A DNA stretch of 64,000 nt from Bradyrhizobium sp. Ash2021. Its GTDB lineage: Bacteria > Pseudomonadota > Alphaproteobacteria > Rhizobiales > Xanthobacteraceae. A program made the translations under genes and the position numbers. Shown piece after piece: positions 10,081-59,100 of this stretch (positions are counted from its first letter, which is position 1; each line of letters begins with the position of its first letter). The stretch spans positions 8,166,501-8,230,500 of the forward strand of contig NZ_CP100604.1 in assembly GCF_031202265.1 (NCBI RefSeq), read 5' to 3'. The notes under the pieces were generated by a model. It did no database searches. It was given only the letters and a program-made list of their open reading frames with translations, and was not told the origin of the DNA.

Positions 10081-10182
10081 TATCAGTCTGACATCATGGC
10101 GAGGTTGTCGCAGGAACCATCTTTCGATGGCAGCCTTGCCGAAATCGGGCAATGCGCACTGCAACATCAATTGGAGGAATAA

Positions 10183-21828: not shown

Positions 21829-23255
21829 GTGCCGTAGCGGAGTTGGTAGGAATTGAGGGTGGCGTAGTCTCCGGGGTGTTCAACCTCGAATCATCCGGCG
21901 TTGAAGCGCTGGACTGGAGACCACGCCATGACGAACAATACTACGAGGCCTGATTCTTTGCAGCCTGTGGCCGAGAAGGCTATTGATTTTTTCGACAACT
22001 GGTTTGATCCGATCGAGACCGAGGTACGGGCTCGGGCGCGTGAGTTCATCGAAGAGTTGCTCCGCGGTGAGCTCGACGCGGCGCTGGCACGGCCGCGTTA
22101 CGGCCGAAGCCAGATGGCCAGCAATGAAGCAAGAGCCAGCGTTGCGGGCCACCGCCACGGTAGCCGGACACGGTCGCTGACGGGCACGTTCGGGCCGATC
22201 GAGATCGCGGTGCCGCGCGCCCGGCTGACCACTTCCGAGGGCAAGACGGCGGAATGGAAGAGCCAGGCGCTGCGGGCCTATCAGCGGCGCACGCTCGCTG
22301 CAGACGCGCTGATCGCCAGCACGTATCTCGCCGGCACCAATACCCGGCGGGTGCGTCGCGCACTGGCAGCCTTGTTCGGCGGGACGGTCGGCAAGGACAC
22401 CGTGAGCCGAACCTGGCGTAAGGTGAAGAGCGACTGGGATGCCTGGAACGCCCGTTCACTGGCCGAGGATCCGATCGTGCGGCTGATCCTCGACGGCACC
22501 GTGGTTCGCGTGCGGCTCGACCGCAAGGCGACCTCGATCTCGCTGCTCGTTGTCCTCGGCGTGCGCGCGGACGGCCTGAAGGTGCTGCTCGCGATCAAGA
22601 GCATGGGCGGCGAGAGCGCCGAGGCTTGGCGCACGGTCCTCGACGATCTCATCAGGCGCGGGCTGCGGCAGCCCGAATTCCTCATCGTCGACGGCGCGCC
22701 GGGGCTCGACAAGGCCATCGCCGCCGTCTGGGACGGCGTGCCAGTCCAACGCTGCACGGTTCACAAGCATAGGAACCTTTTCGCGCACGCCCCCGAGCGC
22801 CTGTATGACGAGATCACCGCCGATTACAACGACATGATCTACGCGGCGACACCTGAGGAGATAGAGGTCCGCCGTAAGGTCTTCATCCGCAAATGGAGGC
22901 TCAAGCATCGCGCTGTTGCCGACAGCCAGGAGGAGGCAGGAGACCGCTTGTTCACCTTCACCCGCCTGCCGCAGAGCCAATGGCGCAGCGTACGCACCAC
23001 CAACGCGATCGAGCGTTTGCACGAGGAATTCAAGCGCCGGATCAAGACCCAAACCGTTTTGCCGTCGTCCGACACCGCCGCCATGTTGTTCTGGGCGCTA
23101 CTCGCATCAGGACAGATCAACATGCGAAAGGTAGATGGCTGGCAGACGCTCTCCACAAAACCCATCGATCAGCCGATTGACCTTGCCGCCTGAAACGATA
23201 CCTTCATGTTCCCGGAATGCGCCACACCAATTCCAACCAAATTCCGGACGGCACC
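21829..23255 (+). mobile_element. IS256-family element with target duplication
   Basis: Imperfect inverted ends (GTGCCGTAGCGGAGTTGG at 21829 and, on the other strand, GTGCCGTCCGGAATTTGG ending at 23255) enclose one transposase gene. The 10 bp CTTTGGCGGC occur directly outside both ends (21819-21828 and 23256-23265); allowing for end ambiguity this gives the 8-10-bp duplication expected for IS256. Size is ~1.43 kb. It sits between the dehydrogenase and NYN genes of module copy 3. Confidence 0.88.
21928..23193 (+). CDS. IS256-family transposase (Mutator superfamily)
   Basis: This 421-residue protein has the Transposase_mut core. DDE residues are likely in LILDGTVVRV (first Asp), FLIVDGAPGLDKAI (second Asp) and NAIERLHEEFKRR (Glu). 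The signature CTVHKHRNLFAHAP between the second Asp and the Glu is typical. The start MTNNTTRPD is preferred to a Met nine codons upstream because it follows the left inverted end at a usual distance. It looks intact. Confidence 0.92.
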   Translation: MTNNTTRPDSLQPVAEKAIDFFDNWFDPIETEVRARAREFIEELLRGELDAALARPRYGRSQMASNEARASVAGHRHGSRTRSLTGTFGPIEIAVPRARLTTSEGKTAEWKSQALRAYQRRTLAADALIASTYLAGTNTRRVRRALAALFGGTVGKDTVSRTWRKVKSDWDAWNARSLAEDPIVRLILDGTVVRVRLDRKATSISLLVVLGVRADGLKVLLAIKSMGGESAEAWRTVLDDLIRRGLRQPEFLIVDGAPGLDKAIAAVWDGVPVQRCTVHKHRNLFAHAPERLYDEITADYNDMIYAATPEEIEVRRKVFIRKWRLKHRAVADSQEEAGDRLFTFTRLPQSQWRSVRTTNAIERLHEEFKRRIKTQTVLPSSDTAAMLFWALLASGQINMRKVDGWQTLSTKPIDQPIDLAA

Positions 23256-24247: not shown

Positions 24248-25420
24248 CTAGTCGCGGCCGTCCTGCTCCAGATCGAAGACCGCGACGCCTTCATGGTTGG
24301 TAGGTCGCTTCAGGACCTCGGGATGGCGCAGCGTTCGCACCGTGTCGTGGTAACCGGCACGCCAATGAGTCTCCATGCTCGAGCGCGAGAACTCATAATC
24401 TTTCGAGTTTCCCTCGTAATTCCTGGCCCGATAAATCAGGTGCACCATGTTGTAGACCTTGCGGTCGGCGATGGAGCCGAGCAGCTTCGCACTGGGTTCG
24501 TCCTTCAGATCGTCGGGCAGGCTCTCAAGCAAGGCGGCGACGGTGTTGCGTATCCGCTGTGCACGCTTGAACTGGTCCGTGTTGGCTCGGGTCCGGCTCG
24601 AATATTGGATCTCTTTTTGTCGCGTTTGGACTTCGGCCATGTCGCCGGGAAAATCTCCCCGGGCGCTCCATAGATCGACTTGGAAAGCCAGCGTGTCCTG
24701 GCGCGGAGTGCTGTCCAGCACCCATTGCAACGGGGTATTTGAGATAAGGCCGCCGTCCCAATAACGCTCGCCGTCGATTTCGACGGCGGCAAAGCCCGGC
24801 GGCAAAGCACCGCTCGCCATCACGTGCTCGGGCCGGATCGTGTGGGTGGTCGAGTCGAAATAAACGAAATTGCCGCTCCGCACGTTGACCGCGCCGACGC
24901 TGAACCTCATTTCCCGGGCATTGATGCGGTCAAAATCGACAAGGCTTTCCAGTGTGCCTCTCAGCCCGGACGCATCGTAGAAGCTGGTCGCTTCGATCGA
25001 TCCCGTCGGATGAAGCCAGGGAGACGGAAGCCGCGGCACGAAAAATCCCGACACGCCGCTCAACATGGCTGAATTAGCGCTCATCTGGTTCATGAGTCCT
25101 CGGACCCAGTCCCCCTTCATCAAAGACGTCAGGAAATCCTGCGTTCCTCTTCCGAAGACGTCGGAGGTAACGCGCTCCCAAAACTCGCGCAGCTTTTCAA
25201 CGCGCCTTTCCGGCGGGTTGCCTGCGATAAGGGCCGAATTGATGGCCCCGATCGAGATGCCCGCCACCCAGTCCGGATGGATGCCGGCTTCCGAGAGCGC
25301 CTCATAGACGCCAGCCTGGTAAGCGCCGAGAGCGCCACCCCCTTGCAGCAGCAATGCGGTGCACTCGAAGGGCGGACGGCGCTCAGCGCAATGGTCTTTT
25401 TTCTGGTCGACCGGCAACAT
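24248..25420 (-). CDS. Patatin-like phospholipase (DUF3734 type), copy 3
   Basis: This 390-residue protein is ~85 percent identical by eye to copy 1 and keeps the oxyanion loop LLQGGGALGAYQAG, the nucleophile GISIG and the DGG motif. The start MLPVDQKKD aligns with that of the other copies; GGAG is 13 bases upstream. It is the first gene of the copy 3 operon, followed by 3-hydroxybutyrate dehydrogenase and (before the IS insertion) NYN. This pairing suggests it releases 3-hydroxyacids or fatty acids from a polymer or lipid, which is inferred from context. Confidence 0.9.
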   Translation of the reverse strand: MLPVDQKKDHCAERRPPFECTALLLQGGGALGAYQAGVYEALSEAGIHPDWVAGISIGAINSALIAGNPPERRVEKLREFWERVTSDVFGRGTQDFLTSLMKGDWVRGLMNQMSANSAMLSGVSGFFVPRLPSPWLHPTGSIEATSFYDASGLRGTLESLVDFDRINAREMRFSVGAVNVRSGNFVYFDSTTHTIRPEHVMASGALPPGFAAVEIDGERYWDGGLISNTPLQWVLDSTPRQDTLAFQVDLWSARGDFPGDMAEVQTRQKEIQYSSRTRANTDQFKRAQRIRNTVAALLESLPDDLKDEPSAKLLGSIADRKVYNMVHLIYRARNYEGNSKDYEFSRSSMETHWRAGYHDTVRTLRHPEVLKRPTNHEGVAVFDLEQDGRD

Positions 25421-25486
25421 GATTGAAATGGTTCTCCAACGTGGCCTTCGGGCGGGCTCCCACAAACAGATAGCGGCCTGGGCCTA

Positions 25487-30321: not shown

Positions 30322-31007
30322 GTCTAAGTAACCACTTCTATATTGGTGAGGTCAAATACAAGAACGAGATCCTGCCCGGCGAGCAGCCTCCGATTATGGA
30401 TCGGGCGATGTTCGACGCAGTCCGGCAGAAATCGCTCGCCCAATGGTCGCACCGCACCGTCGTTCGCAACAAATCTGATCAGCTCCTAACGGGACTGCTG
30501 TATGACGATGCCGGCCATCGAATGATTCCAACCCATGCCACCAAGGCTGGCATCCGCTATCGCTACTACGCGTCGGCCCCTGTCCTGCATGGCGAGGCTA
30601 GAACCGCATCAGCAGGATCGGTCCCCCGCGTTCCTGCTGCTGATATCGAAGACACCATCATAAAATCCATGGAGGCGCATCTTGCCGGCAAACAGAGCGG
30701 TTCGACATCCAGGGCGGTACGACCAGGGGACCGCGAGGCTCTCGCACAGCTAGTCGCGGGGATTGTTGTGCACACGGACAGGCTAGTCGTGCGATTCAAG
30801 TCAGATCACACAGATGAAGCGGCCGATCGCTCGGATGATCCGTCGCTCACGATTGCCTGGCGTAAGCCGCCCTCCAAGAGAGCCCGCCGGATCCTGCTCC
30901 CGCAGAATGCATCCCGAAACGACGTCCGTCCGGAACAGTTCGAACGCCGCGCTCGCCTGGTCAGCGCCATGGAAGCCTTGAAAACACACGGAAATTTTCG
31001 CCAATGA
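30322..31007 (+). pseudogene. Large serine recombinase, C-terminal fragment
   Basis: The frame begins without a start as LSNHFYIGEVKYKNEILPGE and continues MFDAVRQKSLAQW, LLTGLLYDDAGHRMIPTHAT and RYRYYAS. This is the Recombinase domain end plus the zinc beta-ribbon region (its Cys residues are replaced) and coiled tail of a large serine recombinase. The catalytic resolvase domain is absent, so the gene is a relic of a mobile element. Confidence 0.75.
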
Positions 31008-31610
31008 AAAACGCCCGTAAGCGATGGAAATTCCTCGTATTTTCGGTGCTAGGTGATTGATTTGCCCAGATAAATCCTGGCTGGGGCGGGAGGGTACTCA
31101 CCCCTAAACCAAAACGTCAAAAACAACTGAAATCACTATATAATTCAGCGCAGCACGGTCATTGTGTAGCAGCTCAGTGAAGCAGGCCGCAAGAGCAACC
31201 ATTCCCGACATATCGGTGACAGGTGGATGAACAGGCGCGCCCGCGAGGCCGGCCGGGCTCTCGTGAACTAGACCAAAAAGTCTCGGCTTTCGGTCCCGCG
31301 CGATACGCCAAGCACTATTGATTGACCGTTTGCCGCGGGCAGTCGATCCCGCGGGCGGCGCCGGATGACGTGCGCCTCAAAGAGCCAATCCCAGAAACCG
31401 GATGCTGCGGAGCGATTCACGAAACTCGCAAACGCCGAGATCTTGACGAAGTCCTACGGCGAGCCAAGTCAGCTTGAATATGTAGGATTATCGGTTCCAG
31501 CCGCCATGAAGGTATCCGCTGGAAAAACCAGGCGCTTGCCAGCAATGTCTGCTTCAGTGAGCAGATAGCAGTCTTTCGAAATAACCTCTCCTCCAACCCT
31601 GTGCATCTTC
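31008..31610. other. Intergenic stretch without a convincing gene
   Basis: About 600 bp with no supported gene. A 67-residue frame at 31365-31568 lacks a ribosome site. AT-rich sequence near 31130 (ACTATATAATTCAG) could be a promoter. Probably the decayed end of the element that carried the recombinase. Confidence 0.4.
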
Positions 31611-32804
31611 TCAGAAGGCCGGGATACGCAGCGTATTGTTTAGGCGCTCAAGCGTGAGCTGTAAGGAAGTACTCGCCACATTCGGGTTCTGGTCGGCTTG
31701 CAGCGGCGTAGGTGCGCGCACGGTGCGCTGGACGACGGTGGTTGAAGCGGGATGATTGATCGTATCGAGAACCTGTCCCTTCTTGGCGTCCAGGCTTTGC
31801 TGAGCCTGATTTGTTTCGGCTTGAATTCTTCTGAGCGTCGTCAGTCTATCCGCATTCGTCGCAAAGAACTCGCGCGCTTCCGACTGCTTCCTGAGCAATT
31901 CCGACCTGGCCTCAGGTCGGAGTTCCTGAATGGTCGCATCAGGCGCGGGCACGCTGAAACTCTGCAACTGATCGGCTCGTTGCAAAAATACATTATTCTC
32001 TGCAAGCGTCCTTTTGTTAGCACCTATCTTATCTGAAAGGTCCTTAATTTCCTTTTCCAGAGCCTGAAGAGCTTCAAGCTGAAGCTTGGCGTAGTTCGCG
32101 GTCGTTTTCGTTTGCGAGGCGGTTCCGGCCGCGGCCTTGCCGAGGGACACCTCGACGATATTGTCCTCTAGACGATCGATAGTGCCCGTCGGGGTAATGG
32201 TTGTGGCAGGAGCCGGCATAATCACAAATGAAGGTGACGCGTTTGCGTTCAGATCGATACTGAACTCAAACGAATGGCCAATGCTCGCGAGGTCCGATGT
32301 TTTTGCGGATATCGTGGATTCAGACAAGGCGCCGTCAAATGCGCGGTCCATCCAATTCTCGAACCCGATCCTTCCCTTGAGAAGCGGATGAGCGACGTAA
32401 GCCGGCGCCGGCTCGCAGCGGGGGCCGTCCTTCACCGTCGCGAAGTCGAGGTTAAATTTAAGGATCGCAATTCTGTTAGCGGTCGTCGTGCCGCCGCCGC
32501 CAACACCCAGGTTGAGGGTCGAGCCTCTTGGAAGAAGGATAGGATTGGTGCTGGAAGCAAGCTTGACGCCTCCCGTTTCGTTACCCTTGAGGGTGACCGT
32601 ATATTGACCCTGCCAAGTTCTGAGCCATTGCCGCCCGGGCCGATGATAGATCTGGGTTCGGACCGCGTCCTGAAACTCGCAATCGATGCTTGCGACCAGC
32701 GCCTCAATCGGCAAGACCTGCTCGCTCACTAGCTCGGGAACGTGCGTTCCGCATCCCGCAAGTATGAAAGCTCCCAACAAACACAAAAACAATTGCGCAC
32801 GCAT
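31611..32804 (-). CDS. Lipoprotein with C-terminal coiled coil
   Basis: This 397-residue protein has a lipoprotein signal (LCLLGAFILAGC, lipid on Cys18), a beta-rich middle with a low-complexity GVGGGGTTTANR loop, and a long charged helix (LEALQALEKEIKDLSDKIGA, NNVFLQRADQLQ) likely to form a coiled coil. It should be membrane-anchored and face the periplasm. I do not recognise a family. It is divergent from the three-gene motif cluster across ~400 bp and may or may not belong with it; its lower GC is like that cluster. Confidence 0.75.
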   Translation of the reverse strand: MRAQLFLCLLGAFILAGCGTHVPELVSEQVLPIEALVASIDCEFQDAVRTQIYHRPGRQWLRTWQGQYTVTLKGNETGGVKLASSTNPILLPRGSTLNLGVGGGGTTTANRIAILKFNLDFATVKDGPRCEPAPAYVAHPLLKGRIGFENWMDRAFDGALSESTISAKTSDLASIGHSFEFSIDLNANASPSFVIMPAPATTITPTGTIDRLEDNIVEVSLGKAAAGTASQTKTTANYAKLQLEALQALEKEIKDLSDKIGANKRTLAENNVFLQRADQLQSFSVPAPDATIQELRPEARSELLRKQSEAREFFATNADRLTTLRRIQAETNQAQQSLDAKKGQVLDTINHPASTTVVQRTVRAPTPLQADQNPNVASTSLQLTLERLNNTLRIPAF

Positions 32805-33207
32805 GGACGCCCCCAGAGGCCCATTACTAACTTGCTCTTATAAAGCGATGCGAACTTATACTATGCAACTAGCGGGCGATAGTGCCCATTCCCTCCCGCG
32901 CAAGGCTCTTTACGCGTGGTTGGCGCAACCGTCCGATGTTTAGCATGTGCCAAGCAGGTAGCTGGCGACACGGGTGACAGTCGTCTCCGACCACAGGCGG
33001 GGCGTCCGTCCATCAAATACGGCCGAGGAGACGAACTGCATGGAATCCAGCTTTGACAACGAGGCTCCACCGTTTGCATAACGGGGCCAGTAGTCGCGAG
33101 CCGTGTCACCTGCTGAAAACTTCGTCTGTCATAGGGCTATTTAGCGCCGAGGACTACGGTTATACTCCCACAGATTTTATGACCCCGGCATTGCAACGGA
33201 GGATAAC
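32805..33207. promoter_or_regulatory. Divergent regulatory region
   Basis: No gene is seen in these 400 bp between the divergent lipoprotein and the motif cluster. GGAGG five bases before the ATG at 33208 is a strong ribosome site. No clear operator was found. Confidence 0.4.
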
Positions 33208-33672
33208 ATGGAGAGGAAGCCTAAGGCAAAGAAAGCCAAGAAGGCCAGCTCAGGAAAGCAGTCAGGCGGGGTTAGTGTCTCCGGGAGAATTGGTAGTGTC
33301 GGTGGTGACGTCATCGGCCGCGACAAAAACACCGTCAACATCTCAAAGATCGATGAAGCATTCGGCTCTCTCTCCAAAAAGATAGAAGCCTCGGATGCGC
33401 ACGTGAGCCCAGAGGCCAATGAAACGCTTGAAGCACTGAAGAAAGAAGTAGCCAAGGGAAGCAAATCCAAAGATAGCGTCATGGCCACTCTACTGCAAAA
33501 GCTGGTGAAGCTGGTCCCGGAAGCGACAGGCTCCATTGTGAGCGCCTTCGCCACGCCACTGCTTGGCAAGATTGTGGGGCCACTTACGGGGCTTATTCTC
33601 AAGAAGTTTGAAGGCGCTGGCGATGCGCCGGCAACAAAGGACGCCGAAGAAGACGATACGACCTCCGTCTGA
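33208..33672 (+). CDS. Motif-cluster protein 1: short, hydrophobic C-terminal half
   Basis: This 154-residue protein has a Lys-rich start (KPKAKKAKKASSGK), the shared motif GVSVSGRIGSVGGDVIGRD (21-39), a charged helix (PEANETLEALKKEVAKGSKS) and a C-terminal segment of hydrophobic, Gly/Ala/Pro-containing helices (KLVPEATGSIVSAF, PLLGKIVGPLTGLIL). The last part looks able to insert into or lie on membranes. The arrangement recalls stand-alone proteins found beside STAND NTPases in which a Gly/Asp motif precedes a helical domain. A role as a membrane-acting effector is a hypothesis. Confidence 0.75.
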   Translation: MERKPKAKKAKKASSGKQSGGVSVSGRIGSVGGDVIGRDKNTVNISKIDEAFGSLSKKIEASDAHVSPEANETLEALKKEVAKGSKSKDSVMATLLQKLVKLVPEATGSIVSAFATPLLGKIVGPLTGLILKKFEGAGDAPATKDAEEDDTTSV

Positions 33673-33736
33673 ATTGCTTCGTCGGGCTACGTTCGCCTCC
33701 AACAGAACGCTGCAAGATGTCGAACAGGACGATATC

Positions 33737-34636
33737 ATGATAAAACGGGACAGACGGAACGGAGTTACCATATCCGGAACGATGGGCGACGTAGACGGTG
33801 ACGTTGTTGGTCGCGACAAAATTGAGCTTAACCTCACGCTTATTGAAAATCCCGAGACCTCCGAGACGCTGAGAACAGCGCTGGAATTCATGCAACGTGC
33901 ATCCTCACTTCTCGAGGACGCTTCAGCCAAGAGACGCCTTTATGCTCCAGTCGGGGAGCGATCCCCCACTTTGTCCTTCTGGATCAGAGAAGCTCTCGAT
34001 CCGCTACATGGCGCCATGAAATCGGTGCACAGCATTTATCTGACGACCTTCGGCGACGTTGAGAGATTGTTAGACGATAACGATCCGACTTCCCTAAATG
34101 TCGCCTTACAGCTTCTTTCCAGGCGCCACCTCGAAACGCGCGAAACCCGGATGGAGCTTCAAGCATTCCGAATTTCAATTCGGGAATTAGACGGCATACC
34201 AGTGGAGATACAGAAATATCTCGACGCCTGCGAAACCTATTTCTTGCATGCCACGGTCATAGCCGTGTCAAGCCCAATGCGCGCTCTCCTTGAGCAGTTG
34301 TCACGTCTTGACGTTTCAGCGCTAAGTGATCAGCAACTGAAGGCCATGGACCCCTACGAGGGATCGCGGCTTCCAACCGCGGCCCGCACGAGCGTGTGCG
34401 GCGTCATACACCATCTGGAAGAAAACTGGCCGCATGTCTTGTCGCGATATTACAGCGGCAGGCTTCAATTCCTGCAACGAGGCGAGCTGAAAAACGACGT
34501 AGAAGGTCTCCTTGAACAATTGAGCCTTCTGACTCGCGAACGGCGGTTAGGGTCAATACGCAGAGCCAGTACGTCCAACGCATCGGAGGAATTAGGCGGC
34601 ATAGAAGCAGAACTCGACAGCTTGACCAGCGAATGA
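33737..34636 (+). CDS. Motif-cluster protein 2: helical
   Basis: This 299-residue protein starts MIKRDRRN and carries the shared motif GVTISGTMGDVDGDVVGRD at 9-27, then IELNLTLIENPETS and ~260 residues of predicted helices (TLRTALEFMQRASSLLEDAS, VALQLLSRRHLETRETR, ALLEQLSRLDVSALSDQQL). No membrane segment, P-loop or catalytic motif is visible. It starts 64 bp after protein 1 and its stop overlaps the start of protein 3 (ATGA). A short string IYLTTFGDV resembles LYITTGQRV in protein 3, so the two helical domains may be distantly related. Confidence 0.75.
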   Translation: MIKRDRRNGVTISGTMGDVDGDVVGRDKIELNLTLIENPETSETLRTALEFMQRASSLLEDASAKRRLYAPVGERSPTLSFWIREALDPLHGAMKSVHSIYLTTFGDVERLLDDNDPTSLNVALQLLSRRHLETRETRMELQAFRISIRELDGIPVEIQKYLDACETYFLHATVIAVSSPMRALLEQLSRLDVSALSDQQLKAMDPYEGSRLPTAARTSVCGVIHHLEENWPHVLSRYYSGRLQFLQRGELKNDVEGLLEQLSLLTRERRLGSIRRASTSNASEELGGIEAELDSLTSE

Positions 34637-35487
34637 GCCCGCAAGGTAGCCCAACCATGAGTGACCGCGCGAACATGGACGGCGCCGGCGCGGATAGCGG
34701 AACCGGCAATACCTTCAATGGCGTCCTTGTCTCCGGTAACATCGGGAGAATCGTCGGAGATCTGATTGGCGGCGATAATACGGTCATCAACAATTTTGGA
34801 AATCCCGCTTTTGAAGCCAAAGTGCTCGGCCTCTTTGAATCCTGGAGCGCATCGAACGCCGAGCGATCCGCGCTCGCCGCGAATTTGATAGCCCTAAAGC
34901 TCGCAACGGTCTTTGTCGATCAGATGCGCCTTCTTTATATAACGACCGGTCAGCGCGTCAGAACGGCCAATGCTCATCTTCTTGCTCATTTCATTGAACG
35001 CGCCGATAACGATGCGAAGCAATTAGACATTTACATGCAACGATATTCGCTAGCACAACTCGACGCGGCATTCTTGAAGGACGTTTATGCCGTAGAACAA
35101 TACTGCGCTAAGACATTCAAGAAGTTTGGCAGCGCTCATCCCCTTCCCCGCGACCAAAAGGACTTATTTCGCGACATGGCGAGCGCGACGCTGCCGATGC
35201 GCCGGATTTTGCATGCGGCGGATACGAAGGTTATCGCATCAACAGTCGCCGTCGTGAACGACATCGCGACAGGTTTGCGGCGCGCCTATTCCTATCCGGC
35301 GGGATTTGCGAAGGCGGACGAAATCGCCATGCTGCGATTTGAGATTCAGACAGAGGCTCTCAAACGCCTGCAAAGCGACGCGTCTATCCAAATCCGCACC
35401 ATTGACGACGACGCGGAAGGCCGTTTCGCGCCCCTTTACTTCATTATCGATCACTGGCTACTGGATGAGTGCAAACCTTCGCTTTAA
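34633..35487 (+). CDS. Motif-cluster protein 3: helical
   Basis: This 284-residue protein has the shared motif GVLVSGNIGRIVGDLIGGD at 30-48, an Asn-rich continuation (NTVINNFGNPAF) and a helical body (LAANLIALKLATVFVDQMRL, AHFIERADNDAKQLDIYMQR, KDVYAVEQYCAKTFKKFG). It ends in HWLLDECKPSL. Its ATG overlaps the stop of gene 2 by four bases, so translation is coupled; an in-frame ATG at 34657 is an alternative start. Function unknown. Confidence 0.75.
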   Translation: MSPQGSPTMSDRANMDGAGADSGTGNTFNGVLVSGNIGRIVGDLIGGDNTVINNFGNPAFEAKVLGLFESWSASNAERSALAANLIALKLATVFVDQMRLLYITTGQRVRTANAHLLAHFIERADNDAKQLDIYMQRYSLAQLDAAFLKDVYAVEQYCAKTFKKFGSAHPLPRDQKDLFRDMASATLPMRRILHAADTKVIASTVAVVNDIATGLRRAYSYPAGFAKADEIAMLRFEIQTEALKRLQSDASIQIRTIDDDAEGRFAPLYFIIDHWLLDECKPSL

Positions 35488-36235
35488 CCGCTCGTACATC
35501 TAGGCTGATTTGAAGCCATATTGACAGTTTGCATGCTTAAGAGGGTGGATAGTGATCAGGCCGGTATCCCAAATCTCAAACACGCTCGACTCGGAAAGCC
35601 GGCAGCGGCTTTGTTGAAACAATCTTTGCGCGCGACAGCACATAAGTGGCAGCGCATAATGCACCATCGCGCGACGCGGCTTTAGCCTCATCTAAGATGA
35701 TCCCAAGCGTGTCATATTTCGTTGGGCTCCGCCCACCCCTGATTTGGGCTTTGATTGATCAGGATCGCCCCCACAACCGTATGTATAAACTTGGATCGCG
35801 CCAAGATTGGCCAGCGCGTTATCGTCGTAAACGTTGAGTTCGCCGAAGAGGCCATCAATTCGCGTCAGCACAACGGAATCACCGTTCGAGGTCTTACTCA
35901 ACCGACTTTTGCAACAAAATCGGCCCTATCCCGACATCAATCTAACAGTCGCCCTCGTCAGCTTTTGACCCAGGCTGTGTGAAAACTCAAAATCTCGAAG
36001 CGCGACGAGAATGATATTCTTGAGTTCGACCTCGAAATTGAATGGGCTTGCAATGTGGGCACTTGAAACGGTCTTGAACGACTAACTTGTTCTATCGCGA
36101 TCGAGCTTCCTCGCGTTTTCACGCAGCCTGGACCCGAAGCCGAACCATCGCAACAAACACGGGATGTCCGATATGCGGCGCGTCAAACTAGCAGAAACAT
36201 TAACTTACGTTAAACCGCTGCGGCGGCGACAGTGC
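35488..36235. other. Intergenic stretch without a convincing gene
   Basis: About 750 bp without a supported gene on either strand. Short frames at 35692-35982 lack ribosome sites. Composition is intermediate between the motif cluster and the downstream GC-rich Hsp70 operon. Confidence 0.4.
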
Positions 36236-36236
36236 T

Positions 36237-36303
36237 TGCGACTTCATCACGCTTCTCGGCGGCGCGGCGGCGGCATGGCCGCTAGCGGCGCGGGCCTCGC
36301 GCA
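36237..36303 (+). pseudogene. Signal-peptide remnant of a substrate-binding protein
   Basis: The plus strand encodes [20 protein letters not shown], the signal peptide typical of the binding proteins seen intact at 44322 and 47843. Nothing of the mature protein follows. It is cut by the end of the Hsp70 gene region. Confidence 0.65.
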
Positions 36304-36306
36304 TGT

Positions 36307-39120
36307 CTATTCGATCAAGATCAGACCGGGAGGGAGTGAATCGTCGTGTAGACTGGCCCGGTCGGATCGTCCGATCGGAACGAACCCTTTGATTTTTGCG
36401 GTCTGCAGCGCAGGGACGCCGGATTTCTCCAGCTTGCTGGCAATCAGGCCGCGCAAAGGCATGGGTAGATCCAGGCTCCGATCGTCGACGACGCGCGCGG
36501 CCCGGAGGAACAGAATCTGCAGGTCGAGCAACTCCGGCGTAGTCCAATCGAAGCGCTGGAAAGCCTGATACGCGTGCTCGACGAGATCGGGCGAGACGAC
36601 AGTCTCCGGCCCTGCGTAGAGCGGAGTTCGGTTGAGCAGGAGTCCGAGCGCCGCAAGATAAGGAGCGCAGTGCCGCTTGGCCCGTGCAAGCGTCACCGCG
36701 ATGTCGCAGAAGCGACGCACCAGTTCCGCCTTGGTGTCGTGGTGGATCAGTTCCAGGGATCCAGCCAGGCGCACGAGTTCGTCGGGCGCCCTGCCGCTGC
36801 GGATCCTGTCGATCTCTCCGGCCATAAGCCTGGTCTGGCGTTCGCGCGTGAGCCCGCCCGCCACCCGGCGCCAGAGGATGTATTCCTGGCTCTTGATGCG
36901 CCGACCGGGAAAACACGAGCCATCATCGTGCACCCGCCACAGGGCATCGATACGAAGGTCGTCCCGGACAACGCCGAAGCCCGGGCGCAACAGAAATCCA
37001 GCCATGATGAGCCATGCCTCTTCGTGGTCCGCCGAACGTCGTCTGTCGTCCCGCCGCTCCTCGAGCGCAGGCCAAAGGGCGCGCAGCAGGGGCCCGTTCC
37101 ATTCACTTCTGGCAGACGCGAGGATGCGCTCCATACCCTTGAGGATCGTGGCAGCAGTAATCTTGTTCTTTTTGCTGTTATTGGCAGGCTGGGTGAACAC
37201 GATCCCGATCTGCCTGCGTGCCGTTTCCAGCGCGTCCGCTGAAGCGTTCGGTTCAATCGGAGCGTTTGCCTCCAGCGCCCGCCCCGCACCGGGCGCGCCC
37301 GCGACGCCTTGGACGTGCTCGCGCATGTTGAATTCCAGCGGCCAGGACTGCTGGACGGCGGGGTCGGCGCTGACGCACGAGATGTGGAGCAGCCCCAGTG
37401 CGTTCATCCGCGCCGTCAGACCGACGGGCAACATCCCGCCCGCTTCCGGACCGGATAGCTCAGCCGTCCTGACGACGGTCTGGAGCGGGGGCAACGGGTG
37501 AAATTCGCCTTCGGACCAGGAAACGATGTCTCCGGCCCGGCTGACGCTCTTCCGGGTTGAGGAATAAGCCTGGAAGCGCACCAGCTGATCGGTGCGGAGC
37601 TTAAGCCCAAGATCAGCGATCTCAAAAAGCTGCGACGGCGCTGCACCCTGAGGAAGAACGCATACGAGGGGTGGACGCACAGTCTCGCGATCCGTTGCCT
37701 GTATCCCCTCCACTTCGAGAAAGATCGCAGCGGCGGCCCCAGCGGCGATGCGGCCCGAACGGTGGTGGAGAAGGGCACCAAATCGCGCGGCTCCGCGCGC
37801 CACCGCCAGATCCGGCTCCTCGTTCTCCAGAACCTGCGGTACGTAGCCGTCCTGCCAGCCTCCGATCTGCTCGCGGAGTCTTTGGCGCAGGAGCGGCGGT
37901 CGGACGGATCCGCCGTTGAACAGGACGGCATCAATGCGCGGGCGATCGTTGAGGAATTCGGCAAGGTGTCGGGTTATCGCGCTGTCGGGAGGATAAGGAA
38001 GCCCCCATTCCCTCAGTGCCGCGTGCGTCCGGTACGGCCGCGCCGCCGCGTCGCAGAAGGGAAAAAATCCGTCCAGCAATAGGCTCTCGATTTCCGCCCG
38101 CATCACCGTCGCCGCCTGCGAGCCGCCGACCATCCCCGACCCGCGACCGGCCAGTGCAACAACGAACCGCTCATCCGGCGGCCCCGTAGTGGCCAGCGCG
38201 TGCTCTTTCAGATGACGGCAGGCGGCGACGAGCTGATCCCATTGCGGGCCGGAAAGCTGGCCGCCCGCCCCGGCAAGCCGCGGCTCCAGGAAATGGGCGA
38301 CGGCAAGGTCGATATTGTCGCCGCCGAGCAGCGTGTGCTCGCTCACCGCGACACGCCTGATGTCAGGCTCCGGCGTTGGCTCGTTGAGGCGAACTTCAAA
38401 AATGCTGAAATCCGAGGTGCCGCCGCCGATATCGATGACCAACACGTGTCGCAGCCCGACATCGCCGTTGTCCGGCCGCTGCCATAATTCGCGCGCTGGG
38501 TCGTGGCTTTCCAGCCAGCAATAGAACGCAGCCTGCGGCTCTTCGAGCAGTCGCACATCGCCGGGGAAGCCCGCTTCCTCGGCGGCGGTAATCGTCAGCC
38601 GCTGCGCCGCCGCATCGAAGGAAGCCGGGACGGTAACCGTGATGTCCTGATCATCGAACGCAAACCCGGCCTGGGCAAACCGGCTGTTCCAGATCCCCCG
38701 CAGATAGTTCAGAATCAGTGCCGAGGCGCGTACCGGTGAGATTTTCTGCTCACGTGCCAGAACCGTCGATCCCCATGGCAGAAAGGGTGCCGACCGGTCG
38801 GCGGCGTGATGGCAAAGCCACGACTTCGCGGAATGGACGACCCGTCCGGGCGCTTCGCTTGCCTTCATGCGTGCAAAAAGGCCGACGATCCATTGCCCGG
38901 CTCCGACCTCCTCACCGCGCAAGTGTGCTGCGACCGCTTCCTCTGGCAGGTACAGGAAAGAAGGTAGCGTTGGCTTCTCGGTCAGACTCGCCAGGCCTTC
39001 CCATTGCGGGACGAGAAGGACCTCTGGCGTCCCCTCGCCGACCAGTGGCGCGAATGCGAGTGCGGAGTTGGTCGTGCCGAGATCAATACCAATGGCGAAG
39101 CGGGCGCGGTCTTTCGTCAA
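36307..39120 (-). CDS. Hsp70-family protein with long C-terminal extension
   Basis: This 937-residue protein has an actin-like Hsp70 ATPase domain: phosphate 1 GIDLGTTNSALAF (12-24), connect/phosphate 2 VLVIDIGGGTSDFSIFEV, and adenosine-type AVLFNGGSVRPPLL. In place of a DnaK substrate lid it has a ~400-residue helical extension (from EARR..IGIVFTQ onward) of the DUF3731 type. It is the last gene of the operon, 27 bp after the disrupted Hsp70 gene. These non-canonical Hsp70s have no known client. Confidence 0.9.
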   Translation of the reverse strand: MTKDRARFAIGIDLGTTNSALAFAPLVGEGTPEVLLVPQWEGLASLTEKPTLPSFLYLPEEAVAAHLRGEEVGAGQWIVGLFARMKASEAPGRVVHSAKSWLCHHAADRSAPFLPWGSTVLAREQKISPVRASALILNYLRGIWNSRFAQAGFAFDDQDITVTVPASFDAAAQRLTITAAEEAGFPGDVRLLEEPQAAFYCWLESHDPARELWQRPDNGDVGLRHVLVIDIGGGTSDFSIFEVRLNEPTPEPDIRRVAVSEHTLLGGDNIDLAVAHFLEPRLAGAGGQLSGPQWDQLVAACRHLKEHALATTGPPDERFVVALAGRGSGMVGGSQAATVMRAEIESLLLDGFFPFCDAAARPYRTHAALREWGLPYPPDSAITRHLAEFLNDRPRIDAVLFNGGSVRPPLLRQRLREQIGGWQDGYVPQVLENEEPDLAVARGAARFGALLHHRSGRIAAGAAAAIFLEVEGIQATDRETVRPPLVCVLPQGAAPSQLFEIADLGLKLRTDQLVRFQAYSSTRKSVSRAGDIVSWSEGEFHPLPPLQTVVRTAELSGPEAGGMLPVGLTARMNALGLLHISCVSADPAVQQSWPLEFNMREHVQGVAGAPGAGRALEANAPIEPNASADALETARRQIGIVFTQPANNSKKNKITAATILKGMERILASARSEWNGPLLRALWPALEERRDDRRRSADHEEAWLIMAGFLLRPGFGVVRDDLRIDALWRVHDDGSCFPGRRIKSQEYILWRRVAGGLTRERQTRLMAGEIDRIRSGRAPDELVRLAGSLELIHHDTKAELVRRFCDIAVTLARAKRHCAPYLAALGLLLNRTPLYAGPETVVSPDLVEHAYQAFQRFDWTTPELLDLQILFLRAARVVDDRSLDLPMPLRGLIASKLEKSGVPALQTAKIKGFVPIGRSDRASLHDDSLPPGLILIE

Positions 39121-40218
39121 GAATTACCTCCAGAGGCGGTCCGGCTCCTATTCCGTGCGGACCTGGAACTCAACCTTCCATCGGCGATCGGAGTTCGTGT
39201 GCCTCATCCAAAGCTCAAGGATGCCAAGTTCGGTGACGACGGGGCTGACGCGGACCGGCACCACCTGCCCCACCGGGACGTCCAGTGCCGGGATCGCGAC
39301 TTCGAGCAGGCCAGCGTCATCAAGCTCACGCTCGGCGTCGGGGAGTATCTGTCCCGGCGTATCGCCGCTTCGTACCGAGGAGGAGAAAAACCGAAACTCC
39401 GCCGTGCGGCCGGTGACAAGGCCGAACTCGCGTCCTTCGATCAGCAGTTCCGTGCCTTCCTGCATCCCCTGCGGGACAACACACAATGCCTTCAGCGGCG
39501 GCTTGTAGCCCGGAATGGCGGGCATCGACGTTTCCAGGCCGATGTAATAGGAGCGCGCCGCGCCGGCCTTAATGCGCATGCCCTTGCCAGTGGCGCGGAG
39601 ACGTCCGTAGATCGCGCCGCCGCGTGCGACGGCGAGGTCTGGTTCGAAACCCTGTAATTCGCGGACTGGCTGGCCCCCATTCCAGGACGCCAGCAGATCA
39701 AGCACCCGGGTGCGGATTGGCGCGGCCTTGAAAACGCCCCCATTGAACAAGACCGCGGTCGGCATCAGCATCTGCGCGCCAGCCGATGCTCCCACCAGAG
39801 CGGCAAGCTTTTCGCTTGCCTTCACGTTCTGCAGGCTCTGAGCGAGAAACCGGGCGATATGCTTGCTGACGACCGGATCGGAAGCATAGGGCAGACCGAA
39901 TTCCTGCAGCCCTGCCATACCGCTCTCGCGCGGCAGGTCGTCAAGGCAGGTTCTGGCGAAAAAACCGTCGACAACAACTTGCTCCAGCATCTCGCGATCG
40001 AGAGTCGTTGAGACAGTCTTGGCAAGCAGGCTGGAGCCGCGCGAGGGGACCGCGATTGGCGCCTGCGCCAGCCCGCCATCATCAATCAGGACGATCTTGG
40101 CTTTGGAGGCGGCATGCACGAGCGCCAGGAACTGCCAGGAGTCCAGCCGTTTGCCCGCGGCCTCAAGCTTGGCGTTCAGCGCATATGCGAGCGCCAAATC
40201 CATATTGTCGCCACCTAG

Positions 40219-41671
40219 GAGCCTGTCCGAATAGTGGCTGTTCAATTCTGAGCGAGTCTGATTCAACCTTGGGCGATGAGCAAGTATTTTCGCCCCTGGA
40301 ATATCGATCAGACGCTGCTTCTGCCGCCGAATGTGCAGGACTTCGTGCCGAAAGGCCATGTCTCGCGGTTTATCGTTGAACTGGTGCGGGAGAGCCTCGA
40401 TCTCAAGGAGATCACGGGCAGCTATGTGAGCGGGCTCGGGCAGCCGCCGTTCGACCCGCGCATGATGGTGGCGCTTGTGCTGCACGGCTATGCGAGTGGG
40501 CTGTATTCATCGCGGCGGATCGCGAAGGCCTGCCGCGAACGGAATGATTTTGTAATGATTGTCGCGCTCGATCCGCCGGATTTTCGCACGATCAGCGACT
40601 TCCGCAAGCGGCATTTGAAGGCGCTCGGCGCACTGTTCCTGCAGGTTCTGAAGTTGTGCGAGACGGCAGGGCTGGTCAAACTCGGCCATGTCGCGCTTGA
40701 TGGCACGAAGATCAAAGCGAACGCGTCGAAACATAAAGCGATGAGTTATGAGCGCATGAAGAAACGCGAGGCGGAATTGAAAGCCGAGGTCGCTCGCATG
40801 CTGGCGGCCGCTGAGGCGGCGGATGCTCAGGAGGACGAGACTTTCGGCAAAGACAAACGCGGCGACGAGCTGCCGGATTGGGCTGGCGACAAGGAGAAGC
40901 GGCTGGCGAAGATCCAGCAGGCGATGGCGGCGCTGGAGGCCGACGCCAGGCTGGCCGCGGAGGAAGAGCGTCGCATCGAGGCCGAAAAGGAACAGCAGCG
41001 CCAAGCCGAAGGCCGCAAGAAGCCGGGCAAACCGGCGGCGCCGGCATCGGACCAGCCTGATCCCAAGTCGCAACGCAACTTCACCGATCCGGAAAGCCGC
41101 ATCATGAAGTCGAAGGATGGCTTCGTTCAGGCCTATAATGCACAGGCCGCCGTCGACGCAGGCGCCCAGATCATTGTCGCGCACGAACTGACGCAGTGCG
41201 GCAACGATCAGGGCCAGCTGGTGCCCCTGATCGAGGCCATCGAGAACAATCTCGGCCGCACGCCGGAGCAGGCCTCAGCGGACTCCGGCTACTGCAGCGA
41301 ATCCAATCTCGAAGCGCTCGAAGCACATCGCGTTGACGGCTATGTCGCGCCTGGACGCGCCAAGCACCCGACAGCCGCGAACGGAAAAATCGGCGGACCG
41401 CTGACCCAACGGATGCGAAAGAAGATCGACGATGGCGGCTTCGAAACGCCCTACCGATTGAGAAAGCAAGTGGTCGAACCGGTCTTCGGACAGATCAAAC
41501 AGGCGCGCGGCTTCCGCCAGTTCCTGTTGCGGGGTGTCGAAAAAGTGCGTGCCGAGTGGGCCATGATCTGCACCGCCCACAACCTCCTGAAGCTGTTCAC
41601 CCTCGCAAAGGCTGCCTGAGCCGGCTAACATGCCAATAAATGCCCGTCGCAGCACCTATCTGGACGGACTC
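40219..41671 (+). mobile_element. IS1182-family element, 1453 bp, CTAG duplication
   Basis: Ends are inverted repeats GAGCCTGTCCGAATAGTGGC (left) and GAGTCCGTCCAGATAGGTGC (right, other strand). CTAG flanks both ends (40215-40218 and 41672-41675) and one copy is needed to restore the Hsp70 frame, so the boundaries are exact. The target CTAG is palindromic. Confidence 0.92.
40276..41619 (+). CDS. IS1182-family transposase
   Basis: This 447-residue DDE transposase has the family start (FRPWNIDQTLLLPPNVQDFV), the DUF772-like helical domain (PPFDPRMMVALVLHGYASGL), the first Asp in VALDGTKIKANAS, a long charged insertion (~160-260), the second Asp in ASADSGYCSE and the Glu in VVEPVFGQIKQARGFRQFLL. 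It is intact. Confidence 0.93.
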   Translation: MSKYFRPWNIDQTLLLPPNVQDFVPKGHVSRFIVELVRESLDLKEITGSYVSGLGQPPFDPRMMVALVLHGYASGLYSSRRIAKACRERNDFVMIVALDPPDFRTISDFRKRHLKALGALFLQVLKLCETAGLVKLGHVALDGTKIKANASKHKAMSYERMKKREAELKAEVARMLAAAEAADAQEDETFGKDKRGDELPDWAGDKEKRLAKIQQAMAALEADARLAAEEERRIEAEKEQQRQAEGRKKPGKPAAPASDQPDPKSQRNFTDPESRIMKSKDGFVQAYNAQAAVDAGAQIIVAHELTQCGNDQGQLVPLIEAIENNLGRTPEQASADSGYCSESNLEALEAHRVDGYVAPGRAKHPTAANGKIGGPLTQRMRKKIDDGGFETPYRLRKQVVEPVFGQIKQARGFRQFLLRGVEKVRAEWAMICTAHNLLKLFTLAKAA

Positions 41672-54686: not shown

Positions 54687-55973
54687 ATGCAAGTTAATAG
54701 CCGCGCGCTGACGAAGCGCTACGTCGATAGCCTCAAGCCCGCTGCGAAAGCGATCCTGGCATTCGACGCCAGCCTGGCGGGGTTCGGCGTACGGGTCATG
54801 CCGAGCGGGCACCGCTCCTATTTCGTGCAGTACCGGAACAAGCACGGCCGCTCGCGATGGTTCACGATCGGCGCGCACGGGCCGATGACGGTGGATAAGG
54901 CGCGCAAGATTGCCAAGGACGTGCTGCACGCAGTGGCCGAGGGCAAAGACCCGGCCGACGCGCGCAAAGCATTCCGCAACGCTCCGGACATGGGCCAATT
55001 GCTCGATCGATACGTCGCGGAGCATGTCCGCAAGCATAACAAGACCACGATCCGCGCCGAATTGGAGCGGGTCGTCGAGCGCTATATCCGACCGGCGCTC
55101 AAGGCATTGAAGGTTGCCGCGGTGACCAGGGGCGATATCGAAAAGCTCCACCGGTCGCTGGCGGGAACGCCCCGGCAGGCCAACGTGGTGCGTGCCGTCT
55201 GTTCCAAGGTTTTTAGCCTAGCCGAGGTGTGGGAAATGCGCCCCGAGGGAACCAATCCCTGTCGGCGCATCCCGCGCCACCCCGAGCAGCATCGCGAGCG
55301 CTTCCTTTCCGGGGACGAACTGGCCCGCCTCGGCGCGGTCCTAAGGCTGGCTGCCAGTGACGGCTTGCCGTGGATAGTGAAGGCGTCGAAGGCCACGGCG
55401 AAGCATCTGCCGGCCGAGCACCACCGCAGAACGGTCTATCCACGGGTCACCACCGCCACGGTCGAGCTTCTGCTCTATACCGGGTGCCGCCTTTCCGAGG
55501 TGTTGAACCTGCGGTGGGAACATATCGATCTCGACGCTGGCACCATCCTGTTGCCGACGACGAAATCGGGGCGTGCGCAAACGGTGACGATCAACGCCCC
55601 GGCGCGTCAAATTCTTCTCAACCTTAGGCCTGACGACGACGCTGAATGGGTACTGCCCGGCAAACTCGATTCGTCAAAGCCCTTGAAAAAGGATGCCATG
55701 GAGGCGGCGTGGCAGAAAATCCGCGCGGCGGCCGACCTCGCGGACGTTCATCTGCATGATCTGCGACACACGGTGGGCACCTATGCCGGCCAATCCGGTG
55801 CAAACGCCTTCTTGGTGCGCGATCTTCTGCGGCATAGCGATCTATCGATGACGGGCCGCTATGTGAACAAGTCGGATGATCCGGTCCGGACCCTTAACGA
55901 TCTTGTCGGCGAGCGCATCGCAGCCGGACTTGAAGGCCGGCCGCCGGCCGTTGTCGTTCCCCTTCGGCGATAA
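54687..55973 (+). CDS. Tyrosine-type site-specific integrase
   Basis: This 428-residue integrase has an N-terminal DUF4102-like arm-binding part (LAGFGVRVMPSGHRSYFVQY), a core-binding domain and the catalytic domain: Arg in LLYTGCRLSEVLNLRW, Lys in LLPTTKSGRAQTV, HDLRH (His, Arg), His in LLRHSDLSMTGRY and Tyr in the same string. All six catalytic positions are present, so it should be active. It belongs to the P4-type integrases that use tRNA ends. Confidence 0.95.
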   Translation: MQVNSRALTKRYVDSLKPAAKAILAFDASLAGFGVRVMPSGHRSYFVQYRNKHGRSRWFTIGAHGPMTVDKARKIAKDVLHAVAEGKDPADARKAFRNAPDMGQLLDRYVAEHVRKHNKTTIRAELERVVERYIRPALKALKVAAVTRGDIEKLHRSLAGTPRQANVVRAVCSKVFSLAEVWEMRPEGTNPCRRIPRHPEQHRERFLSGDELARLGAVLRLAASDGLPWIVKASKATAKHLPAEHHRRTVYPRVTTATVELLLYTGCRLSEVLNLRWEHIDLDAGTILLPTTKSGRAQTVTINAPARQILLNLRPDDDAEWVLPGKLDSSKPLKKDAMEAAWQKIRAAADLADVHLHDLRHTVGTYAGQSGANAFLVRDLLRHSDLSMTGRYVNKSDDPVRTLNDLVGERIAAGLEGRPPAVVVPLRR

Positions 55974-56133: not shown

Positions 56134-59100
56134 ATGACTGACACGCCAGCTGTTCCGCGTTCCATTGAGCGGTCCTTCCGCGATCTTTCCGATGCCGAAG
56201 TCGCCGATATCGAACAAGCCTCCCTGCTTGCTCAGGCGGGCTGGAGGGGTAGTTTCGAGTGGGACGAGCTACTGCGCTCACAGCGTATACTCATTGTTTC
56301 AGAGGCAGGGGCAGGAAAGACGTACGAGTGCCGGACGCAACAGGAACGTTTATGGCGCGCTGGTGACGCCGCTTTCTTCCTCGACCTCGCCACTTTAGCG
56401 ACTAGTTCCGTCCGCGACATGCTAAGCGCGGAAGAGGAGCAGCGACTCGATGAATGGCTACGTTCGCAGTCTGAGTTAGCGACCTTTTTCTTGGATTCGA
56501 TTGATGAACTGAACCTGACACTTGGGAAGTTTGATCAATCCCTAAAGCGGCTCAATAAATCGCTTGAAGGGCAGCTTGGGCGCGTGCGCGTGGTCATAAC
56601 GACACGGCCGGTGCCGGTTGATCGAGCTCTGATCGAGCAATATTTGGCGATCCCGAGTACATCCGAAACGGAGCCGACGGCCGAAGCGTTTGCCGACGCG
56701 GTCATGGATCGAAAAGCGAAATCAGACAATGAGCCGAAGACGAAGGCTTGGCGTAGCGTTGGGTTGATGCCGCTATCGACCACGCAAATGCGCGAATTCG
56801 CTTTGCTACAAAATGTATCCGATCCCGACGCGCTTCTGGACGATATCAGGCTTCGGGATGCGGAAGAGTTTGCACAACGTCCACAAGACTTAATTGAGCT
56901 ATGTTCGGATTGGCGCGAGCATCAGCGTATTCGCACGCACCGTGAGCAGGTCGAAACCAATATCGCCACCAAACTGAAATCGAGAACAGATCGGAAAGAA
57001 CGAGCGCAGCTTTCGCAAGAGAAAGCCATCGAAAATGCAAGCCGTCTTGCCTTGGCGGCCATGTTGACGAGGAAGCTCACATTGCGGCACAGCGCAGAGG
57101 CCGATTCCGTGGAGGCGAGCGAAGCCGCTCTCGACGTATCCAGAATTTTGTCCGACATGAATGAAGACGAAAGAGCGACGTTGCTCGAACGCCCTCTTTT
57201 CGGTTTTGCCAGCTACGGCCGCGTTCGTTTCCACCATCGTTCCGTCGTCGAGTATCTCGCCGCAAGGCGACTAGAATCCCTGCGCGCGCGAGGAACACCG
57301 GTCAAGGCCATTAAACGGCTCATCTTCACCAAAACCGCTCAAGGAACACGAACTGTGCGCCCGTCAATGCGCCCGGTCGCGGCGTGGCTAGCACTATCGC
57401 ATGATACCATATTCGACGACATCATCGCCGTTGATCCCGCTGTCGTCCTGGATCACGGGGACCCTCAGAACCTGACACCGCCACAACGCATCAAGGCACT
57501 GGAAGCTTATGTTGGCCGGCATGGGGGTGGCGGCTGGCGCGGGTTGAACACACCGAGAATTCAGGTGCACCGTTTCGCAACGCCGGAGCTAGCCGATGCA
57601 GTGAGCCGTCTATGGCGATGCGATATTGAGAACCCGGAAGTGCGCCAACTGCTGCTCAAAATGATGGGCGCCGGAAAACTCTCGGCGTGTGCCGATATTG
57701 CGTACAAAGTGGCGATGGAAGGCGAACGAGACCCCTACGAGAGAAATCTTGCGATCGAAGCACTGTTACAACTTAACGACCCGCGCGTTGAGACATTGGC
57801 TCGTTCACTCGAGACGGAAGCAGTACGATGGCCCGACGCCGTGGCTCGCCGCGCGATGCTCGACCTCTTCCCCAAGCATCTGCCGATTTCACGACTTGCT
57901 AAAATACTTGGCCGAGTGAAGGAAGCCGCCCGAACGGTCGGCGAACTGAATTACCAATTTCCGCGCGTGATCGAAAGCGCCGACATGTCGCGGGACTACC
58001 TCGATGAATTGCGCCAAACCCTTTTCGATTTAATGGTTGACGGGGCGACGTGGAAAAAGGACAAATTTCCGCATCTCGGGATAAATCGGCCCCATCTCAT
58101 GCCGGCGCATATCGCCGCTTGTCAGCGACAATGCATCAAAGGCATCAGAACCGATCAATGGATCGCGTCCGCACTATTAGCCATCCGCCTCTCTAAGGAT
58201 GATCACACAGAACAAGGTGCCTTAAAGGATCTTCGGAGTGCGCTCGCCGAACTTTCTTCGCATGCGCGCGAGGCAGCGTTTTGGGCAGAAGATGCGTTTC
58301 TGTCGGGTTTTTATCAGATCAAAAATGCCTGGGACCGACTATTTGAGATTTCTCACCGTGGCGGCATTCAGCTTAACAACGAAAAAGATAGTGAGTGGAT
58401 TAGAAGGCGCCTCTCTGACCCGGCGGAGTCCATAGATCGTCGAGAAATGATGTTATGGGCTGAGATGGTTTTGCTTCATCGGGATGAGCCGGACTATCGA
58501 AAGTTCCTCGAAAGCCTCAAGCCCTTCGTCGTGGACGCCGCAAACCTCACGGAGATCATCGACAATCGGACGAAACCCCAGGAAGGCGCTGCCGACTTCC
58601 AGAAAATGCAAGCCCAGCATGAGAAACGCGTCAAGCAGGAGGAGCGTAAGGCGGCAAAGGCGCACGCTAGCTGGGTGGCATTCTGGCGAGAGATTGAAAA
58701 GGCACCGAGTACGGTATTCGCCGCCGACCGTGCCGAGAACACTGCGTGGAATCTTTGGCAAGCGGTTGAACGCTCGGGCAATGAAAGCCGTGCGTCGGGG
58801 TGGAACAGAAGATTCATTGAGGCGCAATTTGGCAAGGACGTGGCGGATCGCCTGCGCGAAACGATGATGACAATCTGGCGCAAGGACAAACCCACCCTTC
58901 GCAGCGAGCGGCCCGATAATGAGAAGGGCACATTTTTGGTCAAATGGCAGTTTGGCCTCGCGGCTATTTCTGCTGAAGCAGAAGACCCAAAGTGGGCCAA
59001 GCGTTTGTCTGAGGAGGAAGCTGAACTCGCCTGCCGGTATGCGCCTCTTGAACTAAATGGCTTTCCGTCATGGCTTGAGAGTCTCGCGATCGTGCATCCG

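Follow-up and report, generated by a model that had tools for sequence, protein, structure and literature searches.

A three-gene cluster of Bradyrhizobium sp. Ash2021 whose products share a short motif, a candidate tag for co-assembly with a proposed TCAD2-like effector

Introduction

The bacterial amyloid signalling sequences (BASS) 1-10 were reportedly defined by Dyrka et al. in 2020. As far as the excerpts cited here describe them, they are motifs of 20-40 residues common to the products of adjacent genes, which encode Bell-domain effectors and NLR proteins, and they are also reported with CHAT and TIR domains (PMC7889193, PMC8086366). Here we describe three consecutive genes, P1, P2 and P3, whose products share one motif of 19 residues, at positions 33208 to 35487 of a 64,000-nucleotide stretch of Bradyrhizobium sp. 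Ash2021 (NZ_CP100604.1, positions 8,166,501 to 8,230,500, forward strand; hereafter the window, with positions counted from its first letter). The source genome comprises 9.7 Mb in two contigs. The cluster resembles the BASS systems, as those excerpts present them, in that the same short motif occurs in the products of adjacent genes, and the relatives of the window motif keep the same domain company (NLR, CHAT, TIR). In the same excerpts, effectors carry their motif at the C-terminal end of a Bell domain, whereas the P1 motif, judged by its position only, is N-terminal (residues 21-39 of 154) on a domain resembling TCAD2 ("Ternary complex associated domain 2", PF19971); and P2 and P3 are not NLRs, while an NLR partner with an N-terminal motif is present in three of five P1-family loci elsewhere. 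The window motif was set beside BASS 1-10 by their descriptions, and may be one of them. A literature search with the exact motif strings found no text giving this sequence.

Two further groups of systems are close in their logic. The cited sections of Kaur et al. 2020 and 2021 present EADs and TRADD-N/Death-like adaptors as terminal adaptor elements, which occur in several copies per genome and link effectors to STAND-type cores (PMC7159879, PMC8195603). The window motif is likewise terminal in 78 of the 87 open reading frames (ORFs) that bear it and is shared by adjacent partners, and some motif proteins bear EAD7 or a TRADD-like domain; EADs, however, are globular and mostly alpha-helical in those sections, whereas the window tag is short, apparently disordered and strand-like. 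In fungal HET-S/NWD2 and HELLP/PP and in animal RHIM amyloid signalling, as outlined in part of one source, a receptor templates an effector through a shared motif, and the genes are clustered (PMC7889193). Here the likeness is one of idea, with no sequence relation shown. By analogy, the logic of our cluster would be that already known from BASS/Bell-NLR signalosomes and EAD systems, and it would differ in its N-terminal effector tags, its TCAD2-like effector and its non-NTPase partners.

The first-pass annotation of this DNA had placed motifs of this kind near STAND NTPases and proposed that a shared motif lets partners co-assemble. The former statement was borne out. Because the motif is found both on STAND NTPases and on small partners, in many cases with the genes side by side, a shared co-assembly tag is the best reading of it, and from this we infer the co-assembly itself. 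The genomic evidence for such a tag is fairly strong. We regard it as probable, with some reserve, that the motif binds homotypically and recruits P1 as effector to P2 and P3 as sensors or regulators, in the manner of bacterial amyloid- or EAD-type NLR signalosomes.

Results and Discussion

The motif shared by P1, P2 and P3

The genes, motif copies and domains of the cluster are as follows.

33208..33672, plus strand: P1, 154 amino acids (aa); N-terminal motif, then a helical C-terminal domain that appears distantly related to TCAD2; proposed effector.
33268..33324, plus strand: motif copy 1, GVSVSGRIGSVGGDVIGRD, P1 residues 21-39.
33325..33621, plus strand: putative TCAD2-like helical domain of P1 (approximate limits), ending in a conserved hydrophobic SAFATPLLG stretch.
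33737..34636, plus strand: P2, 299 aa; motif, then a body matching no known family; proposed sensor/regulator.
33761..33817, plus strand: motif copy 2, GVTISGTMGDVDGDVVGRD, P2 residues 9-27.
34633 or 34657..35487, plus strand: P3, 284 aa if translation starts at the first ATG, 276 aa if it starts at 34657, the more likely ATG; the motif precedes a body made of helices throughout; proposed sensor/regulator.
34720..34776, plus strand: motif copy 3, GVLVSGNIGRIVGDLIGGD, degenerate, P3 residues 30-48.
34804..35469, plus strand: helical body of P3, residues 58-279 of the long form; AlphaFold2 model m24da85155cdf, mean predicted local distance difference test (pLDDT) score 73.

All three motif copies are present as the first-pass annotation had quoted them. 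The consensus, [S/N]GGV-x-[I/V]-x-G-x(4,6)-[V/I]-G-G-D-[V/I/L]-[V/I]-G-[R/G]-D-K, spans about 20 residues, with one copy per protein near the N-terminus. The underlying DNA is divergent, as had also been stated: the copies agree at 37 of 57 (P1-P2), 37 of 57 (P1-P3) and 31 of 57 nucleotides (P2-P3), that is 54-65%, and identical residues are encoded by different codons at 6, 9 and 8 positions, respectively.

We searched the window with a motif profile of 80 instances, all from other genomes; these were gathered by iteration from a seed of 27 that included the three window copies, and the final training set was free of window sequences. Among the 385 window ORFs of at least 60 aa, P1 (E 1.6e-8, 28.6 bits) and P2 (E 4.3e-8, 27.2 bits) came out on top and the next row had E 4.5, while the best of 20 shuffles per ORF reached 9.0 bits. 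The seven database homologs of P3 scored 9.5, 12.4, 14.4, 16.1, 17.4, 19.7 and 25.7 bits, and shuffles of 21 family members (n=1050) scored at most 8.1 bits. When the P2 and P3 families were compared as profiles, the motif region was the only part that aligned (columns 26-61 versus 29-63, probability 80.8). With the motif removed the value was 0.1%, and we rejected homology of the two bodies, in agreement with the earlier statement that the rest of each protein differs. From the profile and shuffle scores, the unrelated bodies of P2 and P3 and the divergence of the motif DNA, we conclude that neither chance nor a recent duplication accounts for the shared motif. In both AlphaFold monomer models the motif is disordered (pLDDT <50; residues 20-41 in P1), which would be expected of a tag that orders on assembly and equally of shallow alignments (8 and 11 sequences).

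The motif on STAND NTPases and effector proteins

A scan with the P1 family, one genome per species, yielded 20 loci out of 150 candidate stretches, which came from Roseomonas, two Acidobacteriota metagenome-assembled genomes (MAGs), many Chloroflexota MAGs and one Thorarchaeota MAG (MAG assignments can err). The 14 genomes of those loci, picked because they had matched, gave between 1 and 27 matches, four Chloroflexota genomes having 14, 16, 17 and 27; the motif occurs in Chloroflexota, Acidobacteriota, Pseudomonadota and the one Thorarchaeota MAG. Motif ORFs were then taken from 80 stretches with 4419 mechanical ORFs, the window, L009 (the same place as L114) and L022 being dropped from the counts of termini and Walker A, and L009 and L022 from the counts of pairs.

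Among 60 motif proteins scanned at E up to 0.001, the matches were NACHT in 16, nSTAND1 in 13, NB-ARC in 10, FGE-sulfatase in 7, TCAD2 in 5 and EAD7 in 4, where one protein may match several STAND models. The motif was also found together with TIR (L091, L129), SIR2 (L120), SIR2 and CHAT (L084), CHAT and TCAD2 (L077, L063), a PNP-type phosphorylase (L085), and a TRADD-like domain with EAD7 (L012), and the TCAD2 proteins of Chloroflexota bear the same motif. Of the 63 motif ORFs with 250 aa or more, 28 have a Walker A sequence, versus 30 of 301 non-overlapping neighbour ORFs, some of which are spurious frames (Fisher p 1e-9). With respect to position, 74 of the 87 motifs start within 130 residues of the N-terminus, 4 end within 40 residues of the C-terminus and 9 are internal. 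One protein of 179 aa (L134, 362-901), matching no Pfam family, has a helical N-terminal part and carries the motif at its extreme C-terminus behind another glycine-rich strand pattern, a layout which we take to be that of Bell-type effectors.

A motif with a core so rich in Gly and Asp might also be a beta-solenoid turn or a ligand-binding glycine loop, that is, a folding or binding element that does not join different proteins, and the repeats within L072, L111, L112, L128 and L131, either 2-3 copies of the motif or GD-x-x-x-G-[D/N]-K units in series, do look like solenoid turns. We consider this unlikely, given that the motif is mostly a single copy by a terminus and disordered in monomer models; moreover, neighbouring genes bear it on bodies that are unrelated, and a fold element private to each protein would leave this unexplained.

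Pairing of P1-family genes with motif-bearing partners

Outside the window, five loci hold a clear P1-family gene (A1 score >150 bits, range 151-217), and in all five the next downstream gene on the same strand bears the motif, at gaps of 13 bp (G507), 9 bp (G508), 13 bp (G509), 9 bp (G1037) and 86 bp (G1127). The partner is an NB-ARC-TPR protein in three of the five, those from the Acidobacteriota searches; the G1127 partner has a weak motif (E 0.04, two degenerate copies). The partners in G507 and G1037 are of TPR type with no NTPase recognised by Pfam, and these two are homologous to one another (39% identity over 570 columns, motif excluded), although Pfam TPR models match the G1037 partner only and not that of G507. 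Counted over all loci outside the window, two motif ORFs lie on one strand within 2 kb at 12 of 81, whereas the match density of the richest genome (27 in 7.7 Mb) would predict about 1 of 81. Two loci among the 12 are doubtful, L062 for its gap of 1481 bp and L111 for its ORF of 67 aa.

In the window, the usual downstream partner is replaced by two helical non-NTPase proteins, P2 and P3, which matched no NTPase family of Pfam and have no Walker A sequence. We considered whether P2 or P3 descend from the TPR-type partners that P1 relatives have elsewhere, and set the idea aside, as the comparison gave no support. Pfam EAD models did not match P1-P3 at E up to 1.

The body of P1 and its relation to TCAD2

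In profile-profile comparison, the body of P1 aligned with TCAD2 proteins at 97.1% over 95 columns, and at 91.9% over 90 columns when the intermediate protein L114 was left out, while the controls (P2 body, P3 body and five column-shuffled versions of P1) gave 0.1-0.3%. These comparisons indicate that the second half of P1 is a distant TCAD2 relative, which differs from TCAD2 in its more hydrophobic SAFATPLLG segment. Residues V111-L119 (VSAFATPLL) of P1 are invariant in 11 sequences. L114 itself (9356-10153) consists of EAD7, two motif-like segments and a P1-like body, and is intermediate between P1 and the TCAD2 proteins.

Proposed mechanism and alternatives

The first-pass annotation had proposed P1 as a membrane effector. 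Since P1-family genes pair with NLR-like proteins elsewhere, the role of effector fits. Its membrane part is borderline by hydropathy, and the description of the C-terminal half as membrane-type was too strong.

In the mechanism that we propose, P1 would consist of a disordered tag and, behind it, a small TCAD2-like effector domain that is helical and hydrophobic, and P2 and P3 would carry the same tag on unrelated helical bodies, standing where relatives have an NB-ARC-TPR receptor. Upon a trigger, which could be phage or another stress, P2 and P3 would expose or cluster their tags, and the tags of several molecules would stack, probably as a beta-arch or beta-solenoid and perhaps as an amyloid. 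P1 would join by way of its tag, and its domains, once clustered, would arrest or kill the cell, most likely by acting on the membrane.

Several observations weigh against this mechanism. The P3 copy of the motif is degenerate (-1.0 bit) and is missed by the motif profile. Among the weaker P1-like loci (49-65 bits; G510, G511, G513, G514), a motif-bearing neighbour was found in two of four within the fetched stretch, and most Chloroflexota motif genes stand without a neighbour that bears the motif (69 of the 81 loci). Adjacent genes have motifs that resemble each other more closely than do those from separate loci (9 loci, mean identity 0.61 versus 0.53, permutation p 0.004, BLOSUM p 0.002; 6 P1-family loci, p 0.0125 and 0.0056 over all 720 permutations), a co-variation that fits matched partners, but the test is confounded by whole-operon kinship and two of the 9 loci are near-copies; the window itself does not follow it, the P1 motif having a mean identity of 0.57 to P2/P3 and up to 0.68 to some foreign partners. 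The Pfam TCAD2 model gave no direct match to P1 (E up to 1). Over its most hydrophobic 19 residues, P1 reaches a mean hydropathy of 1.52 (1.37-1.91 in 10 database relatives), borderline for a membrane helix, and PADLOC models matched none of P1, P2 and P3.

More tentatively, the motif could be a separate, undescribed class of assembly motif that spans STAND, TIR, SIR2, CHAT, PNP and TCAD2 proteins, in several phyla as well as a single archaeal MAG. The window would then hold a variant without an NTPase, where two tagged helical proteins of no known family take the place of the NLR and act as the switch for recruiting a tagged TCAD2-like effector. We hold this broader reading to be possible, with the odds somewhat against it. 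If the trio does work without an NTPase, the tag-templating step would be separable from the NTPase switch that is usually thought to control it, and the trio would offer a ready experiment on how a tag transmits from sensor to effector. In addition, one short tag that marks the receptors and effectors of one network would allow new effectors to be found by sequence alone, and it gives P1, P2, P3 and TCAD2, a domain without an assigned function, a testable role.

The three proteins could also assemble through the motif in a role outside defence and cell death, such as that of a scaffold in stress responses or regulation. P1-P3 drew no match from toxin or defence models, and no known defence system was recognised in them or in the 7 further window genes scanned, a patatin-type phospholipase apart. 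We nevertheless think such a role rather improbable, in view of the company that the motif keeps elsewhere (TIR, SIR2, CHAT, NACHT, NB-ARC, EAD7), which is that of conflict systems.

The families of P1, P2 and P3 and their rarity

A search of about 5.8 billion proteins found, besides the window's own, 10 relatives of P1, 1 of P2 and 7 of P3, and all 18 keep a recognisable motif (lowest score 9.5 bits). The P3 family was detected in its own genome only among 385 genomes of the class and, among 265 of the genus, in its own genome plus a marginal 77-aa fragment with a stop (G069, E 4e-4); the P2 family was detected in its own genome only among 257 genomes of the genus, and the P1 family likewise among 249 of the order, where the motif of P2 was matched as well. 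Elsewhere, the P1 profile matched 2 of 150 genomes in the family to which the Roseomonas genome belongs, 3 of 200 in the corresponding order, and 3 of 250 in the class of the Sulfotelmatobacter genome. Two of these matches were set aside, G1293 (E 4e-4), in whose stretch the motif profile found no motif, and G1417 (E 5e-4), where the match falls in a reductase-like ORF. In the source genome, P1 and P2 were the only motif proteins that the P1 profile matched (E up to 10), and it recognised no motif-bearing NTPase.

The P1-P2-P3 trio as a unit was found in no other genome searched, which is one half of what the first-pass annotation had named as refuting its proposal; what does recur is P1 with a different motif-bearing partner. 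That the trio is a recent by-product of domain shuffling, with its tag spread by recombination and the genes themselves a degenerating or functionless relic of an island-borne NLR operon, would suit its rarity, its low GC, DNA that is not shared with a sister genome (G109), the degenerate P3 motif and the missing NTPase, but we judge it the least probable account, as all three frames are open with intact homologs, motif and body are kept in the 7 P3 homologs at 47-85% identity, P1 is kept in 10 relatives, and the motif codons have diverged while the residues are kept.

A phage origin was rejected for P1 and P3, which have no relatives in the viral contigs searched, and a plasmid origin was rejected with 0, 0 and 1 plasmid relatives for P1, P2 and P3. 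The one plasmid relative is an ORF of Variovorax plasmid NZ_LR594691.1 (L139), 29% identical to P3 and matching its residues 61-279, with no recognisable GGD motif. It lies directly downstream of a gene for a 149-aa protein of no known family, and a SIGI-x-G stretch occurs in both proteins, perhaps as a different shared tag. The 149-aa protein presumably resembles the helical membrane-type domains that head such effectors. This pair (7498-8666), a single example, would fit P3 as a regulator, with tag and effector exchanged together.

Gene starts and genomic surroundings

The P1 start is preceded by GGAGG 10 nt upstream, and the gap of 64 bp from P1 to P2 is as first annotated. The overlap of the P2 and P3 genes by ATGA, also proposed, exists if the first ATG of P3 is used; however, the database copy of P3 (P0014) and 4 of the 7 homologs begin at 34657 and no start lies further upstream, the remaining 3 homologs being shorter at the N-terminus, these positions being themselves gene-caller predictions. 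A gap of 20 bp between P2 and P3 is therefore more likely than the overlap. AAGGT precedes the ATG at 34657.

The DNA around the trio has the following feature.

31000..36284, no strand: low-GC stretch around the trio, about 53-58% GC versus 60-65% in the flanking blocks.

An HSP70-related protein with DUF3731 (36285-40221) is common to the sister genome G109, one of 98 genomes of the genus searched, at 94.6% DNA identity; the match ends at 36285, and the 13.9 kb of G109 upstream of that point does not match the window. The window also contains two transposase genes, at 21901-23193 and 40276-41619, and a tyrosine integrase gene at 54687-55973. The low GC, the end of the G109 match and these mobile-element genes suggest that the trio region is variable and probably acquired.

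Four other ORFs of the window were recorded. Behind the integrase, 56134-60474 encodes 1446 aa without a Pfam or PADLOC family. The patatin-like phospholipase (DUF3734; 24248-25465, minus strand), 8 kb from the trio, has weak matches to PADLOC effector models. A 397-aa lipoprotein-like ORF of no known family (31611-32804, minus strand) is divergent from the trio and lies in the same low-GC stretch. The 203-aa ORF at 30396-31007 has no Pfam match at E 0.001, and looks to us like the end of a large serine recombinase.

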